From the NCBI GenBank assembly GCA_028280615.1, contig JANQLK010000052.1, positions 1-64,000 on the forward strand: a DNA stretch of 64,000 nt, read 5' to 3'. Shown here one piece after another: positions 21,143 to 29,349 of this stretch. The notes beneath the pieces are model-generated. The model saw only the letters and a list, made by a program, of their open reading frames with translations. It had not been told where the DNA came from and made no database searches. Position numbers and translations under genes: made by a program. This stretch comes from Woeseiaceae bacterium (GTDB lineage: Bacteria; Pseudomonadota; Gammaproteobacteria; Steroidobacterales; Woeseiaceae). How positions within the stretch are numbered: the stretch's first letter is position 1; the number at the start of each line of letters is the position of its first letter.

Positions 21143-21841
21143 TCATACCCGGGGTGGATTCTCGGCTCCGCCCGCGGAGGGAGAGCCGGCCTCGACGAGG
21201 CCGCTCTCGTAGGCAAACACCACGGCCTGCGCGCGATCGCGCACGCCGAGCTTCGACAGAATACTGGATACGTGTGTCTTGACCGTGGCGGCACCGATGA
21301 ACAGGGATTCCGAGATCTCCTGGTTGTTCAGACCGCGGGCAACGGCCGTGAGCACCTCTTTTTCCCGGCCGGTGAGGCTCTCGAGCTTTGGCGACAGCTC
21401 GGCATCGACGGCGAGACGTTCAGCGAAGCGGCCAATCAGGCGTCGCGTGATCGATGGCGAGAGCAGCGCACCCCCTTCAGCCACGACACGGACGGCTGTG
21501 ATCAGCTCTTCGGGCGGCGTGTCCTTCAGCACGAAGCCACTCGCACCGGCGCGCAGCGCTTTGTAAATGTACTCGTCAGGGTCGAAAGTCGTCACGATCA
21601 GGATGCGCACGGGCCAGTCGGCTTCGGCCAGAATGCGCGTGGTAGCTTCGAGGCCGTCCATATCCGGCATCCGGATGTCCATCACGATGACATCCGGGCG
21701 ATGTTCGTTGGCGACCTCGATCGCTTCGATGCCGGTACCGGCTTCGGCGACGACGTCGATGTCGCCCTGGTGGCCGAGCACCATCGCGAAGCCGCCGCGC
21801 ACGAGCGCCTGGTCGTCAACGACGGCGACACGAATGCTCAC
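21143..21841 (-). CDS. NarL/LuxR-type response regulator
   Basis: VAVVDDQALVRGGFAMVL, DVIVMDIRMPDMDGLEA, LTGREKEVLTAVARGLNNQEISESLFI. Confidence 0.96.
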   Translation of the reverse strand: MSIRVAVVDDQALVRGGFAMVLGHQGDIDVVAEAGTGIEAIEVANEHRPDVIVMDIRMPDMDGLEATTRILAEADWPVRILIVTTFDPDEYIYKALRAGASGFVLKDTPPEELITAVRVVAEGGALLSPSITRRLIGRFAERLAVDAELSPKLESLTGREKEVLTAVARGLNNQEISESLFIGAATVKTHVSSILSKLGVRDRAQAVVFAYESGLVEAGSPSAGGAENPPRV

Positions 21842-23040
21842 GTGACTTCCTCCGTTATCGGCAATCGTGCCAGCACCGAAAACCCACCCGTTCGGCGCGG
21901 TCCCGCCTCCAGCGTGCCGCCCAGCAGCTGCGCGCGTTCCCGCATGCCGGCAATCCCGTGGCCCGCCCCGGGGAGAAGCGTGCGGCCGACGCCGTCGTCC
22001 TTGATCTCGATGGTCACCTCTCGTTCGCCGGTTTCCACGCTGACTTCCGCACGTGCCTGTGGACCGGCGTGTTTCAGCACGTTGGTCAACGCTTCCTGGA
22101 TGATGCGGTAGATCGCGAGCTCGACGCGTGCCGGCAATCGCCGCCGGCTTTGGTCCGGTGTCAGATCGACCTCGAGGCCCGCGCGCTCGATTTCCGCAAT
22201 CAGGCGGGGCAGGTCGGCGCGGCCCGGTTGCGGGCCCAGCTCATCGTTGTCCCTGTCCGGACGCAATACGCCGAGCAGGTGGCGGAGCTCGTCGAGCGCC
22301 TGCCTGCCGGCGACTTCGACCGAGCCCATGGCTTCGGCGGCAGCCGCGGGGTCGGTATCGACGATGGTTTTCGCGGCGCCGGCCTGCACCGTCATCAGGC
22401 TTACCTGGTGCGCGACGATATCGTGCAGTTCCCGCGCGATGCGCGTGCGCTCCGTGGCCACGGCTTTTTCGGCCTCGACCGTTTGCTCGCGCTCCAGTTG
22501 CCTGGCGCGCTCACGCAACAGCCGCAGGTATTCGACTCGGCCACGCACACTTCGTCCGAAATACCAGATGGCGATGGGGAAGATGAGCTGCACGAAATGC
22601 TCGGGCGAGAGATCCGAGTGAGCGAAGTCGCCGACGATGATCAGCACGCAGGCGGTAGCGAGTCCGATGACACTGCCGCGCTCGTCGGTCGAGTAGCGGC
22701 CGAGGTTGTAGAGCGATATCGCCAGCGCGAAGATCGGCCCCTGCAGCTGACCGAGCAACATGCCAAGCGCCGATGCTCCCAGGACGATCCAGTGCACGCG
22801 TTCCGGCAGGCGCCGTCTCCAGTAGAGCGATGCGTTGCCAAGTACGAACAGGGCGAACCCGGCGAAGGTAAGGGACTCACCGCCGTCAGCCTGCTCGCCG
22901 GACCGGAACGCGAACGTCAACAGGAATGAGACGAAGGCCAGGGCGGCATCGGAGAGCCTTGGCCAGCGTTTGAACGGCCCGCGGAACGGCCGCCATTTCT
23001 CGATCAGCGAGGGATCGATCGTTTGTGCGGCCTCGTTCAC
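21838..23040 (-). CDS. Sensor histidine kinase (NarX/DesK-like)
   Basis: TRIARELHDIVAHQVSLMTVQAGAA; HATPase IKDDGVGRTLLPGAGHGIAGMRERAQLLGG; 4-bp overlap with response regulator. Confidence 0.96.
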   Translation of the reverse strand: MNEAAQTIDPSLIEKWRPFRGPFKRWPRLSDAALAFVSFLLTFAFRSGEQADGGESLTFAGFALFVLGNASLYWRRRLPERVHWIVLGASALGMLLGQLQGPIFALAISLYNLGRYSTDERGSVIGLATACVLIIVGDFAHSDLSPEHFVQLIFPIAIWYFGRSVRGRVEYLRLLRERARQLEREQTVEAEKAVATERTRIARELHDIVAHQVSLMTVQAGAAKTIVDTDPAAAAEAMGSVEVAGRQALDELRHLLGVLRPDRDNDELGPQPGRADLPRLIAEIERAGLEVDLTPDQSRRRLPARVELAIYRIIQEALTNVLKHAGPQARAEVSVETGEREVTIEIKDDGVGRTLLPGAGHGIAGMRERAQLLGGTLEAGPRRTGGFSVLARLPITEEVT

Positions 23041-24217: not shown

Positions 24218-26014
24218 TCACGTGTGTATCTCGACGATATCCGACCGCAACCGATCCATTGACGTAAGGAGCTCCGCGCGTTCTCCGTGCTCCAATGGGT
24301 ACTTCTCGAGTATTCGTTCCAGGTGATACACGAAGAGCCGCCAGTCCGACGCTGTCACGCCCATGCCTTCGTGCACTTCCGCCATGCCGCGGCCGGTGTA
24401 CAGGTAGGGCCCACCCGCGCGCTCGCACAGGAAATAGATCAGCAACTCCTTCTCGCGGCGAATGCTGTCCGCTCCCCGATGTCGCCAGAACCGGCCGAGT
24501 TGGGGATCGGCGTGCAGGGCCGGCAGCAATTCGTCGGCTAGCTGTCGCACGGACTCAATGCCACCCACTCGCGTGTACAGGGAATCCGGCCTGGGCCTTT
24601 TGATGCCGAGCTTTCTGATGCGCGAGTTGAGCGTCGATGGATTGAGGCCGAGCAACTCGGCCGTGCCGCCTGGACCGGCGACTCTCCAATCGGCATGTTC
24701 CAACGCCGCGACAAGATTGTTGCGCTCCATTTGCCTCATTTCCGCTTCCTTGATAAACCGGAGCGGCAGGATGCCGGCGTGTTCCGCGGCATCGAGGGCA
24801 GGTATTTGTTGAAGGGCCTGCTCGGGAAGCGCGACATCCAGGCGAAACTCCGTGGTCGAAAGAATGACCGCGCGCTCTATCACACTCTTGAGCTCTCGGA
24901 TGTTCCCGGGCCAGTCATAGTCCTGCAGCATACGCATCTGCTCGTCGGAGAGCGTATAACGCGGCCGATGCAGCTCCGCACATGCAGTCGCGAGGAAATG
25001 GGCGGCGAGTAACGGCACGTCTTCCTTGCGCTTGCGAAGCGGCGGTACTTCGATGGGAAACACTCCGAGGCGGAAGAACAGGTCTTCCCGAAATCGCCCG
25101 TTCTCGATTGCGGTTTCCAGGTCACGATTGGTGGCTGCAATTATCCGCACGTCGACGCGGTGCGTTTTCTCGCCACCGACGCGCTCAAACGACTTCTGCT
25201 GCAACGACCGCAGCAGCTTGCCCTGAAGCTCCTGGGGTATCTCTCCGACTTCATCCAGGAACAGTGAGCCCCCGTCGGCCAGTTCGAAACGCCCTACACG
25301 GTCGCGAACCGCACCGGTAAACGCACCCTTGACGTGGCCAAAGAACTCGCTTTCGAACAGGTCATGGGGAATGGATGCACAGTTGACGGTTACGAGCGGA
25401 GCAGCGGCTCGTTCGCTTTGACTGTGAATCAATCGGGCCACGAGCTCCTTGCCGACCCCGGACTCGCCCGTGATGAGCACGGAAGCATCGGTGGTCGCAA
25501 CCGCCTTGATGCGCTCTATCGTCTGCAAGAGAGCGGGGCTGTGGCCAATGACTTCGTCCAGCTCCCTGATCGGCTGCGTTTCGTCGCGCAGATAGTCGCG
25601 CTCCATCTTCAGGCGATCGTTGAGCTCTCGCAGCTCCTTTACCTGCTCCGTCTTCTCGCGTTCCCGCCGATTGCGCTCGGTAACGTCGTTGAACCACCAA
25701 ATGATGCACGGAGTGCCGTCGTCGTTCTTCGCCGTCGATGCCGAAGCATCCAACTCGATCACGTCTCCGTGTTTGGTCGAAACAGCCAATGACAGTCGCT
25801 GGTGCCGGCCGCCTCGATTGAGTATCTGGAGGCTGCCATCAAGCGCGTCCCGATAGGACTCGCCGACGAGATCGGACAAGGCAATGCCGATGATCTCCGG
25901 CTCGGTGTAACCGAGCTCGTCGAGCCAGGCGTTGTTCGCGCTCAGCATCCGCCCCTCCAGATCCGTCACGTGCAGCAACACGGCTGCGTCGCGGTAAAGC
26001 GCTTCGATATTCAT
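24218..26014 (-). CDS. Sigma54-dependent transcriptional activator: PAS - AAA+ - Fis HTH - C-terminal truncated-hemoglobin-like domain
   Basis: [21 protein letters not shown]-like region; Walker [52 protein letters not shown]; globin [19 protein letters not shown]...[21 protein letters not shown]. Start set at internal ATG ([11 protein letters not shown]). Confidence 0.93.
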
Positions 26015-26043: not shown

Positions 26044-26097
26044 ATATTTCACAAATCGACGGGAAATGTCCACGTTGAAGTTGTGAAATATCACAAC
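26044..26097. promoter_or_regulatory. Paired inverted TTGTGAAATAT sites, the promoter-proximal one forming a palindrome GTTGTGA-AATA-TCACAAC
   Basis: ATATTTCACAA at 26044-26054 and TTGTGAAATAT at 26081-26091; palindrome 26080-26097. Confidence 0.7.
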
Positions 26098-26169: not shown

Positions 26170-26186
26170 TTGGCACGGTTTCTGCT
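26170..26186 (+). promoter_or_regulatory. Predicted sigma54 (-24/-12) promoter
   Basis: TTGGCACGGTTTCTGCT against YTGGCACGRNNNTTGCW: one mismatch, GG-N10-GC spacing exact, 74 bp before ATG at 26260. Confidence 0.75.
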
Positions 26187-26259: not shown

Positions 26260-26973
26260 GTGAAGCACCTAACCCTCTTATCGCTCGCGCTGCTGACGAC
26301 CGCACCGGTTCTCGGACACGAGATCGTGAGCGAGGTCGACCCGGACAAAGTCCCGGCCTTCGATATCACCTCGGGAGCGGCGACCACGGACGGACGGCTG
26401 ACAACCTTCATCATGGAGGTGGCCGGCGTCGCGGGCAGCGAAAAGCCCGTGCCCATCGGCCGGGTGGCCGGCTCCAGGGTCGAAGCCTATGTCTGGCCCA
26501 CCAGCCTAGACCCGCACGTCGTCGGCTTCGATCCCGAGTCCGGCACGCTTGCGCTCGCCATTACCGCCCATCCCGACTTCGATGACACGCCGCTGTACGA
26601 CGAAAACAACGACGGCGATCCCGCCAATGACGGTGCCGACTGGCATTCGCACTGGGTCGTCCTGGTCGACGAGGCGGCCTGCGGTGCGGGTTTGAAGGTA
26701 CGCGATGTTTCGCCCGGCGTGGATCTGCTGCCCGCGACCGCTCCCTATTTCCCCATTGCGCTGGACAGCCCGGGTATGAGCCCGATTCTCGACGGCCGCG
26801 TGGCGAGGATCACGGTGCCCGTCGGTGACACGACCAGCGTCTCGTTCGACGCCGTTACGGCCGAACTGCAGGTAAACGAAAGCGAGCAAGTTCCCCTGCT
26901 GTGCGTAACCGGCGTTCACGACGTCGCGTCCGGCGATCTGTCACTTCCCGGTCGCGTGAGGGTCGAGAAATGA
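26260..26973 (+). CDS. Secreted protein of unknown function
   Basis: Signal peptide MKHLTLLSLALLTTAPVLG; DWHSHWVVLVDEAACG. Confidence 0.75.
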   Translation: MKHLTLLSLALLTTAPVLGHEIVSEVDPDKVPAFDITSGAATTDGRLTTFIMEVAGVAGSEKPVPIGRVAGSRVEAYVWPTSLDPHVVGFDPESGTLALAITAHPDFDDTPLYDENNDGDPANDGADWHSHWVVLVDEAACGAGLKVRDVSPGVDLLPATAPYFPIALDSPGMSPILDGRVARITVPVGDTTSVSFDAVTAELQVNESEQVPLLCVTGVHDVASGDLSLPGRVRVEK

Positions 26974-27602
26974 CTACGCCGACAACGTCGCTTCTCGCGG
27001 GTTCGCTTCTCGCTGTCCTTGCCTGCGGCGACCCGGCGTGGGGAGAGGATGCCGCCGCCTCCAACGTGCCAGCACAATCGATCGCGCCTGACCGGCTCAG
27101 CGTCGAGCTGATCAACGAAATTGGCGAAGTCATCGGCGAGGTCGCCGCACGAGAAGGTGCGATGGGCGTGCTGCTGCAGGTTCGAGCGACGGACCTGCCA
27201 TCCGGTTTTCATGGTTTGCACCTGCACGCCACGGGCGACTGCTCCGATCTTGGCGCCTTCAAACGCTCGGGTGGACATATCCAGCATACGGATCACGCCC
27301 ACGGCTATCTGCACACGGCCGGCGTCCACCGTGGCGATCTTCCCAACCTGTATGCGCATACCGACGGCGTCGCGAGCGCCGATTTCTTCGCCGCCGAGCT
27401 CGCGCTCTCGGACCTACGGGACGCCGACGGCGCGGCCCTGATCGTCCACGCCGAACCCGACAACTACTGGACTCAGCCCATCGGGGCCGCAGGCGATCGA
27501 ATCGCCTGCGCGGCCTTTGCCGGCGGGACCAACGCAACCATGAATCACGCTGCCGAATCGGACGACACGTCGCGTCCCGATCGGGTGAGGACAACGAAAT
27601 GA
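26970..27602 (+). CDS. sodC: Cu/Zn superoxide dismutase family protein
   Basis: GFHGLHLHATGDC, HAHGYLHTAGVHRGDLPNLYAHTDG, ALIVHAEPDNYWTQPIGAAGDRIAC; ATGA overlap with upstream gene. Confidence 0.88.
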   Translation: MTTPTTSLLAGSLLAVLACGDPAWGEDAAASNVPAQSIAPDRLSVELINEIGEVIGEVAAREGAMGVLLQVRATDLPSGFHGLHLHATGDCSDLGAFKRSGGHIQHTDHAHGYLHTAGVHRGDLPNLYAHTDGVASADFFAAELALSDLRDADGAALIVHAEPDNYWTQPIGAAGDRIACAAFAGGTNATMNHAAESDDTSRPDRVRTTK

Positions 27603-27949
27603 CGACTCCAAACGCAACAAATGCATCGATCCTCGTGGCTTTGCTGCTCGGCGCCTTCGTTTGCTGCGACCCGGCGTGGAGCGGCGAGACGGCCGTCCCT
27701 GAAGGCTTGGCGGATTTTCCTGCCAGCCTGATCACCGATACGCCGCAGCTGGGATTTGCACTGGCGATCAGGCTCTCCCGACTTGGCGTGAAGGCGGCGC
27801 AACCGGACGTCGCGGTGTTGAGGAAACTCCGGCCCGTGTACGCAAACAATGCCGACAGCCTGATCGCTACCAGCCAGGTCGTCGCCATTCACTTTCAGAC
27901 AATCGCCGCCGCAAACAACTACTGGAGACGGCCGGAGACGGAACAGTGA
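27599..27949 (+). CDS. Small secreted protein, possibly a degenerate relative of the upstream SOD gene
   Basis: MTTPNATNASILVALLLGAFVCCDPAWSGE resembles MTTPTTSLLAGSLLAVLACGDPAWGE of the SOD; ends NNYWRRPETE versus DNYWTQPIGA. Confidence 0.6.
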   Translation: MTTPNATNASILVALLLGAFVCCDPAWSGETAVPEGLADFPASLITDTPQLGFALAIRLSRLGVKAAQPDVAVLRKLRPVYANNADSLIATSQVVAIHFQTIAAANNYWRRPETEQ

Positions 27950-28500
27950 ACCTCAAGCCGGCTCCGGAACTGCGCACCGCGGAGTGGTTCAACGTAGATG
28001 AGCCGCTGTCGCTGAAAGCGCTGCGCGGCAAGGTCGTGATGATCGAAGCGTTCCAGATGCTTTGCCCGGGATGCGTATCGCACGGTCTACCGCTCGCGGA
28101 GCAGGTGCACAACACGTTCAGCAGACACGACCTGACCGTCATCGGTCTGCACTCGGTATTCGAACACCACGCCGTACAGGGCACTCGTGAAGCGATTGAG
28201 GCGTTTCTTCACGAATACAAGCTCAGCTTCCCGGTGGCGATGGACGCGCCATCACAGCAAGGCGGCTTGCCGCAGACCATGCGTACGTACCAGATGCAGG
28301 GAACGCCCACGCTGGTTCTCGTCGATCGCTCGGGCTACCTGCGTAAAAGGCACTTCGGCGTCCTGCCGGAGTTGGCACTGGGTGCCGAGATCATGTCGCT
28401 GATCCAGGAGTCGGAACAGCCCCTATCGGCGACCGCATCTGCCGCGTTGACCAGCGACGGCTGCGATTCATCGGGCTGCCGCGTCGCACAACAAGACTGA
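27946..28500 (+). CDS. Thioredoxin-fold redoxin with CPGC motif
   Basis: LRGKVVMIEAFQMLCPGCVSHGLP; MQGTPTLVLVDRSG. Confidence 0.88.
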   Translation: MNLKPAPELRTAEWFNVDEPLSLKALRGKVVMIEAFQMLCPGCVSHGLPLAEQVHNTFSRHDLTVIGLHSVFEHHAVQGTREAIEAFLHEYKLSFPVAMDAPSQQGGLPQTMRTYQMQGTPTLVLVDRSGYLRKRHFGVLPELALGAEIMSLIQESEQPLSATASAALTSDGCDSSGCRVAQQD

Positions 28501-28899: not shown

Positions 28900-29349
28900 A
28901 TGACCATGCAGTCGAAACAAGCGGTTGTCGAGGAACTAAGCGTTCTCTTGGCCAGCAGCTATACACTCTATCTCAAGACACAGAATTACCACTGGAACGT
29001 CACCGGGCCCATGTTCACGACCTTGCATGCGCTGTTCGAATCGCAGTATTCGGAAGTCGTTCAGGCGATTGACGAGATCGCCGAGCGAATTCGCGCACTG
29101 GGCTCCCGGGCGCCGGCCAGCTACTCCGAGTACGCAAGACTGTCGCGAGTCGAAGAGGACACCACGAGCCCGACGGCTACCGCGATGATCGAAACACTCG
29201 CCGCGGATCAGGCAACGATTACAGCCACTGCACGTGCAGTCATTCGTGCGGCACTGGAAGTACATGACGATGCCACGGCCGATCTCGGCACGCGTCGAAT
29301 CGACGTACACGAGAAAGACGCCTGGATGCTGCGAAGCCATCTTGAGTAG
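28900..29349 (+). CDS. dps: Dps family DNA-protection/ferritin-like protein
   Basis: LLASSYTLYLKTQNYHWNVTGPMFTTLHALFESQYSEVVQAIDEIAERIRALG. Confidence 0.95.
   Translation: MTMQSKQAVVEELSVLLASSYTLYLKTQNYHWNVTGPMFTTLHALFESQYSEVVQAIDEIAERIRALGSRAPASYSEYARLSRVEEDTTSPTATAMIETLAADQATITATARAVIRAALEVHDDATADLGTRRIDVHEKDAWMLRSHLE

Follow-up and report, generated by a model that had tools for sequence, protein, structure and literature searches.

Organization of the locus

A one-component sigma54 activator ending in a truncated hemoglobin (trHb) is encoded on the reverse strand of the window, by which we mean the whole stretch of 64,000 nucleotides analysed here (Table 1). Its 598 codons translate with 0 internal stops and 0 frameshifts. 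Pfam places along the protein a PAS domain, a sigma54-interaction AAA+ domain in which both the Walker A and the GAFTGA motifs of bacterial enhancer-binding proteins (bEBPs) are found, an AAA_lid_14 segment (residues 327-403), a Fis-type helix-turn-helix (HTH) and, after an in-frame spacer of about 8 residues, Bac_globin (PF01152, residues 478-593, 4.8e-11 in the whole-protein search). Other globin families gave no Pfam match in the protein. A sequence search of the PDB returned truncated hemoglobins exclusively, with M. tuberculosis HbN at the top (6.8e-10) and other group-1 trHbs besides. The domain order (PAS, AAA+ with GAFTGA, Fis HTH, globin) and the limits of the globin (about 121 aa) are those of a first-pass annotation of this DNA, which had also proposed a search of the C-terminal part against PF01152 and had named a frameshift between HTH and globin among the findings that would refute its reading. 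The last 121 aa alone match PF01152 with 1.9e-12 (47.9 bits, cut-off 21), and a frameshift was looked for and is absent. An alternative GTG at 26176 would lengthen the protein to 652 aa; the ATG at 26014 is the likelier start, since the palindromic site at 26082-26095 falls within the GTG extension.

Four genes are transcribed divergently from the regulator, and probably form a single operon (26260-28500), because neighbouring frames overlap by a few bases. Peroxidatic activity is intrinsic to HTHP, the product of the third gene (PMC4813847). Hypothetical proteins encoded by plasmids of the Roseobacter group share about 55% identity with the first product; in Ruegeria pomeroyi its homologue comes first in an operon that includes HTHP and redoxin genes and is divergent from a regulator of the MarR family. 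This comparison suggests that one stress module has been paired with different regulators. Downstream of the fusion gene, at 21143-23040(-), a NarL-type response regulator and its histidine kinase, with a 4-base frame overlap, were noted by eye.

Table 1. Features of the fusion locus (positions in the window)
Feature	Position	Strand	Evidence
One-component sigma54 activator, 598 aa: PAS - AAA+ - Fis HTH - group-1 truncated hemoglobin	24218..26014	-	translation, Pfam
PAS domain, residues 12-113	25676..25981	-	Pfam PAS_9 3.4e-8
Sigma54-interaction AAA+ domain, residues 155-322	25049..25552	-	PF00158 (Sigma54_activat) 9.9e-71
Fis-type HTH (HTH_8), residues 426-469	24608..24739	-	PF02954 1.5e-5
Group-1 truncated hemoglobin, residues 478-598	24221..24583	-	PF01152, PDB HbN 6.8e-10, AlphaFold2 model and Foldseek
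His548 codon, proximal heme ligand F8	24371..24373	-	alignment to HbN; kept in 5/5 fusions
Candidate enhancer (UAS) TGTGAAATATCACA, pattern TRYGA-N4-TCRYA	26082..26095	.	sole pattern match in 64 kb
Sigma54 -24/-12 promoter-like site TTGGCACGGTTTCTGCT, facing divergent operon	26170..26186	+	score 23/24
Exported-looking 237-aa protein, first gene of putative target operon	26260..26973	+	no Pfam match, no PDB match
Cu/Zn superoxide dismutase SodC	26967..27602	+	PF00080 1.2e-29
HTHP heme protein	27599..27949	+	PF11534 5.5e-33
AhpC/TSA-redoxin family protein	27946..28500	+	PF00578 7.4e-9
Dps/ferritin-like protein, 400 bp past operon; candidate regulon member	28900..29349	+	PF00210 8.2e-28

Predicted structure and heme pocket

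Structure prediction of the C-terminal part, likewise proposed in the first-pass annotation, recovered the trHb fold (AlphaFold2, Foldseek). The AlphaFold2 model of HTH plus globin, built on an alignment of 4 sequences only, has the expected helices (pLDDT 79.8, pTM 0.73). All 27 Foldseek matches to it at E<=0.001 are truncated hemoglobins, with 2.4e-6 to trHbN and a target-normalised TM of 0.88 to 1dlw. In the full-length model the domains are fairly confident (pLDDT 81.7) and their relative placement is of low confidence (pTM 0.43).

Alignment to HbN, whose position names (B10, CD1, E7, E11, F8) we take as generally understood from its structure, assigns Leu497 to B10, Trp510 to CD1, Glu521 to E7, Leu525 to E11 and His548 to F8. 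The proximal histidine and the leucine at B10 that had been read by eye are thereby both placed, as His548 and Leu497. The Tyr B10/Gln E11 pair of trHbN-type NO dioxygenases is replaced by Leu497 and Leu525. In the five known fusions (see below) His F8, Trp CD1, Glu E7 and Leu E11 are invariant, and B10 is occupied by Leu in four of them and by Phe in the fifth. The majority of the 35 stand-alone trHb relatives in the alignment have Leu B10, Trp CD1, Glu E7 and Leu E11 as well. Since most close stand-alone trHbs carry identical residues, the non-polar B10/E11 pocket is, on this alignment, an inheritance of the lineage and not an adaptation to fusion or to sensing. The earlier suggestion that a leucine at B10 fits sensing thus loses its force.

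Recurrence of the architecture

Four further fusions with the same junction and domain order were found, at loci L056, L191, L085 and L192, which makes five genomes in all. GTDB genome contigs scanned with the whole protein yielded 586 relatives, and among the 80 kept, L056 (51% identity over residues 13-595) and L085 match through the globin; L191 and L192 were added by whole-genome searches. No more fusions appeared in 1,632 scans of overlapping genome sets, and the architecture is therefore rare. Plasmid records gave no full-length match; among the best matches, coverage of the query reached no more than about 79% and ended at the HTH. The genome of L085 is assigned to the Alphaproteobacteria and that of L056 to the Gammaproteobacteria, and L191 and L192 belong to the class of the window's genome. 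Frames of about 600 aa in G012, G034 and other relatives from the genus were rejected as fusions, since the frame stops shortly past the HTH and the extra length lies at the N-terminus; a 524-aa open frame (G292:C144) was also rejected, being most likely an exported stand-alone trHb in a long GC-rich frame.

The inputs of these proteins differ. L085 (start MTMDAD, preceded by GGAGG) and L192 (start MSDIIG, shortly after its UAS; truncated within the globin by the contig end) consist of AAA+, HTH and trHb, without PAS. The N-terminal regions of L056 and L191 gave no Pfam PAS match, the region being too diverged. L087, a near relative with PAS but without a globin, is set opposite the divergent cupin gene known from the fusions. 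When AAA+ plus HTH are compared in a tree, L087 groups with four of the fusions (support 99/96), and L085 is long-branched and unplaced. A large globin tree was poorly resolved because the domain gives only about 120 columns; three fusions left out of it were included in a smaller tree, where the fusion globins lie on one side of a branch as one clade, with a support (94/88) that is not decisive. These data suggest a single sub-family whose inputs can be exchanged: PAS alone (L087), a globin together with an N-terminal region (window, L056, L191), or a globin alone (L085, L192). In the sigma54-contacting AAA+ loop of the L056 and L191 fusions, GAFSGA replaces GAFTGA.

Promoter and candidate enhancer

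By our own weighting, TTGGCACGGTTTCTGCT outscores every other sigma54 site in the 64 kb. At L056, L191, L085 and L192, and at L087, sites with scores of 20-23 are directed towards the divergent genes, where chance would give 0.03-0.07 such sites per 250 bp per strand. All five fusion loci thus have a sigma54 site facing the divergent cluster, and RpoN is encoded in the window's genome.

The candidate enhancer is overlapped by a longer inverted repeat (ATATTTCACAA at 26044-26054, TTGTGAAATAT at 26081-26091). Its pattern, TRYGA-N4-TCRYA, also lies upstream in L085, L191 and L192, hence at four of the five fusion loci; L056 has no match. The pattern was defined on the fusions and then tested on 77 unfused relatives, where it occurred at 26 sites in 30.8 kb of upstream sequence versus 8 in 850 kb elsewhere (90-fold; p = 2e-31, an optimistic value as the loci are related) and was present in 20 of the 77 loci. 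A match also lies shortly before C39, the unfused paralogue in the window's genome. Genome-wide the pattern is not enriched in that genome (24 sites, versus 44 in a reversed control), so that support for the enhancer is purely positional.

Gene neighbourhoods

In 5/5 fusion loci the regulator is divergent from a cluster of envelope and stress genes. L085 neighbours a cupin gene and sodC, with a ferritin-like gene behind the regulator; L056 and L191 adjoin a cupin and an exported trHb, and L192 a cupin. The cupin was searched for in the window's genome and none was found. The exported trHbs (L056, 4724-5170(-); L191, 6710-7120(-)) have an apparent signal peptide, lie beside the periplasmic-looking cupin divergently from the fusion, and carry Met at B10, Leu at CD1 and Val at E7. 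Genes for NO reductase, Hmp or NnrS were not observed beside any of the five fusions.

The neighbourhoods of close stand-alone trHbs are mixed: two contain a nor operon, one more has norBC nearby, three have a hemerythrin-like gene, and otherwise nothing is consistent among the 24 examined. At L136 (7604-10461, -) and L137 (7373-10248, -) a close stand-alone trHb, which shares about 50% identity with the globin of the fusion, stands in line with norC and norB; in L137 there is a small cytochrome c-like gene between.

Proposed function

The protein is likely, in our judgement, to be a heme-sensing one-component bEBP whose globin adjoins the HTH and which switches on the divergent operon. The globin is very likely the sensor, because two relatives (L085, L192) are without any other sensor domain, and the promoter of the divergent operon is probably under the control of the fusion activator; gene neighbourhood is an indication of regulation, not proof of it. 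The group-1 trHb domain would bind heme through His548, and a change in its ligation or redox state would be the signal, most likely redox or reactive oxygen, with NO next. The signal may pass straight from the globin to the adjoining HTH, the state of which would govern how the protein binds the palindromic enhancer around 26082 and, through that, how the AAA+ ring assembles. The ring would then remodel RNA polymerase-sigma54 at the 26170 promoter and presumably turn on the divergent operon for the exported-looking protein, SodC, HTHP and redoxin, perhaps with Dps. The PAS domain may serve as a second, optional input. In NorR, the AAA+ oligomer assembles on a scaffold formed by the enhancer sites together with the DNA-binding domain (PMC2941729), which would give a sensor placed behind the HTH a plausible handle on activity. 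The output would be oxidative, and possibly nitrosative, defence. The globin appears dispensable to the regulatory module, since L087, a PAS protein without globin, is likewise divergent from the cupin gene. The pocket shared with stand-alone trHbs, the missing UAS pattern at L056 and the GAFSGA motif of L056 and L191 also weigh against the proposal, and the norCB-linked trHbs of L136 and L137 speak for NO rather than for an oxidative signal alone.

According to the first-pass annotation, a heme module sensing O2, NO or CO controls a sigma54 activator. Control by the globin is well supported by anatomy, given F8 His in 5/5 fusions, two PAS-less fusions and outward sigma54 promoters in 5/5. As to the signal, the genes nearby, which encode SodC, HTHP, redoxin and Dps in the window and a cupin, SodC and a ferritin-like protein at L085, suggest oxidative stress at least as strongly as they suggest sensing of O2, NO or CO.

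Within the heme-sensing explanation we favour, tentatively and short of an even chance, a redox or O2 switch. A heme without distal hydrogen bonds would oxidise readily, and its ferric or ferrous state could report aerobic or oxidative conditions and turn on SodC, HTHP, redoxin and Dps. Stress genes adjoin the fusions in the window and in L085, B10 is Leu or Phe and E11 Leu in all five, and Ruegeria has a comparable operon core that diverges from the gene of a MarR-type regulator. Against this, an identical pocket is present in stand-alone trHbs, and ligand chemistry is not something that a sequence can reveal.

A sensor of NO is rather unlikely. The fused trHb would stem from a nor-linked lineage, and the SodC/HTHP/redoxin operon would act against peroxynitrite and nitrosative stress. 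This reading draws on the close stand-alone trHbs within norCB operons (L136, L137), on norBC within about 3 kb of the L199 trHb, on a distal pocket without the Tyr B10/Gln E11 pair of HbN, and on NorR as a bEBP precedent for NO sensing. However, the nor link holds in just 3 of the 24 stand-alone neighbourhoods, neither NO reductase nor Hmp nor NnrS was observed beside the five fusions, and the genes there serve mainly in defence against reactive oxygen. The weight remaining after these two signals falls to other ligands or to a non-sensory role.

Such a role, which we consider improbable, would make the globin a dimerisation module or a local scavenger of NO or peroxide, with the window protein sensing through PAS. 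Many hemoglobins are indeed enzymes, e.g. NO dioxygenases (PMC3820574), and L087, with PAS and without globin, faces the same cupin. Yet the PAS-less L085 and L192 retain the globin with its F8 His, and there would be no evident reason to tie a scavenger to a scarce activator. Finally, that the fusion is an artefact of assembly or arose by accidental read-through between two genes, as might be feared from the fragmented assemblies of the window's genome and its relatives and from unfused relatives that end soon after the HTH, is extremely improbable given an uninterrupted frame and the same junction and order in five separate genomes with globins of one clade.

Comparison with known systems

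Enhancer-binding proteins usually sense through their N-terminus, a pattern from which the fused globin departs. Like NorR, the heme-sensing bEBP proposed here is a one-component sigma54 AAA+ activator with a C-terminal DNA-binding domain and iron-based ligand sensing; unlike NorR, which senses with an N-terminal GAF domain and non-heme iron (PMC2941729), it has PAS in place of GAF and a C-terminal globin. It falls short of the NCBIfam NorR model, with 367.5 bits where the cut-off is 476, in a match confined to residues 123-472. Globin-coupled sensors (HemAT, AfGcHK) also join a globin to a signalling output, but theirs is a 3/3 globin N-terminal to the output, which is not found in the window protein; here a 2/2 trHb is C-terminal, behind the DNA-binding domain. 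With M. tuberculosis trHbN and other group-1 trHbs the domain shares the fold, the conserved glycine motifs, GGPxxYTGR and the F8 His; it differs from trHbN in lacking Tyr B10/Gln E11, in having Trp CD1 and Glu E7, and in its fusion to a transcription activator. A trHb is one module of a larger protein in known fusions too, to a protein kinase and to nitrate reductase (PMC7082302, PMC3820574), none of those in the two sources being a transcription factor or sigma54 activator. In the searchable literature, mostly outside subscription papers, we found neither a trHb fused to a sigma54 activator or other transcription factor nor heme sensing by a trHb-class globin in a transcription factor.

It is tempting to speculate, and on balance we lean slightly this way, that these proteins represent a new sensor class, in which a trHb behind the DNA-binding domain controls enhancer-dependent ring assembly and PAS and globin are exchangeable inputs. 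We know of no established role for most bacterial truncated hemoglobins. Here the globin is tied physically to a measurable sigma54 promoter, so that ligand, affinity and direction of response would be directly readable, and the natural series of PAS only, both, and globin only offers a ready domain-swap experiment.

Another combination of trHb with signalling modules was observed at L214 (G900:C12, 2-2161(-)), where a CheA-type histidine kinase frame (H-kinase_dim, HATPase_c, CheW) carries two truncated-hemoglobin domains, one of them inserted inside the CheW-like part; this is possibly a heme-sensing chemotaxis kinase.
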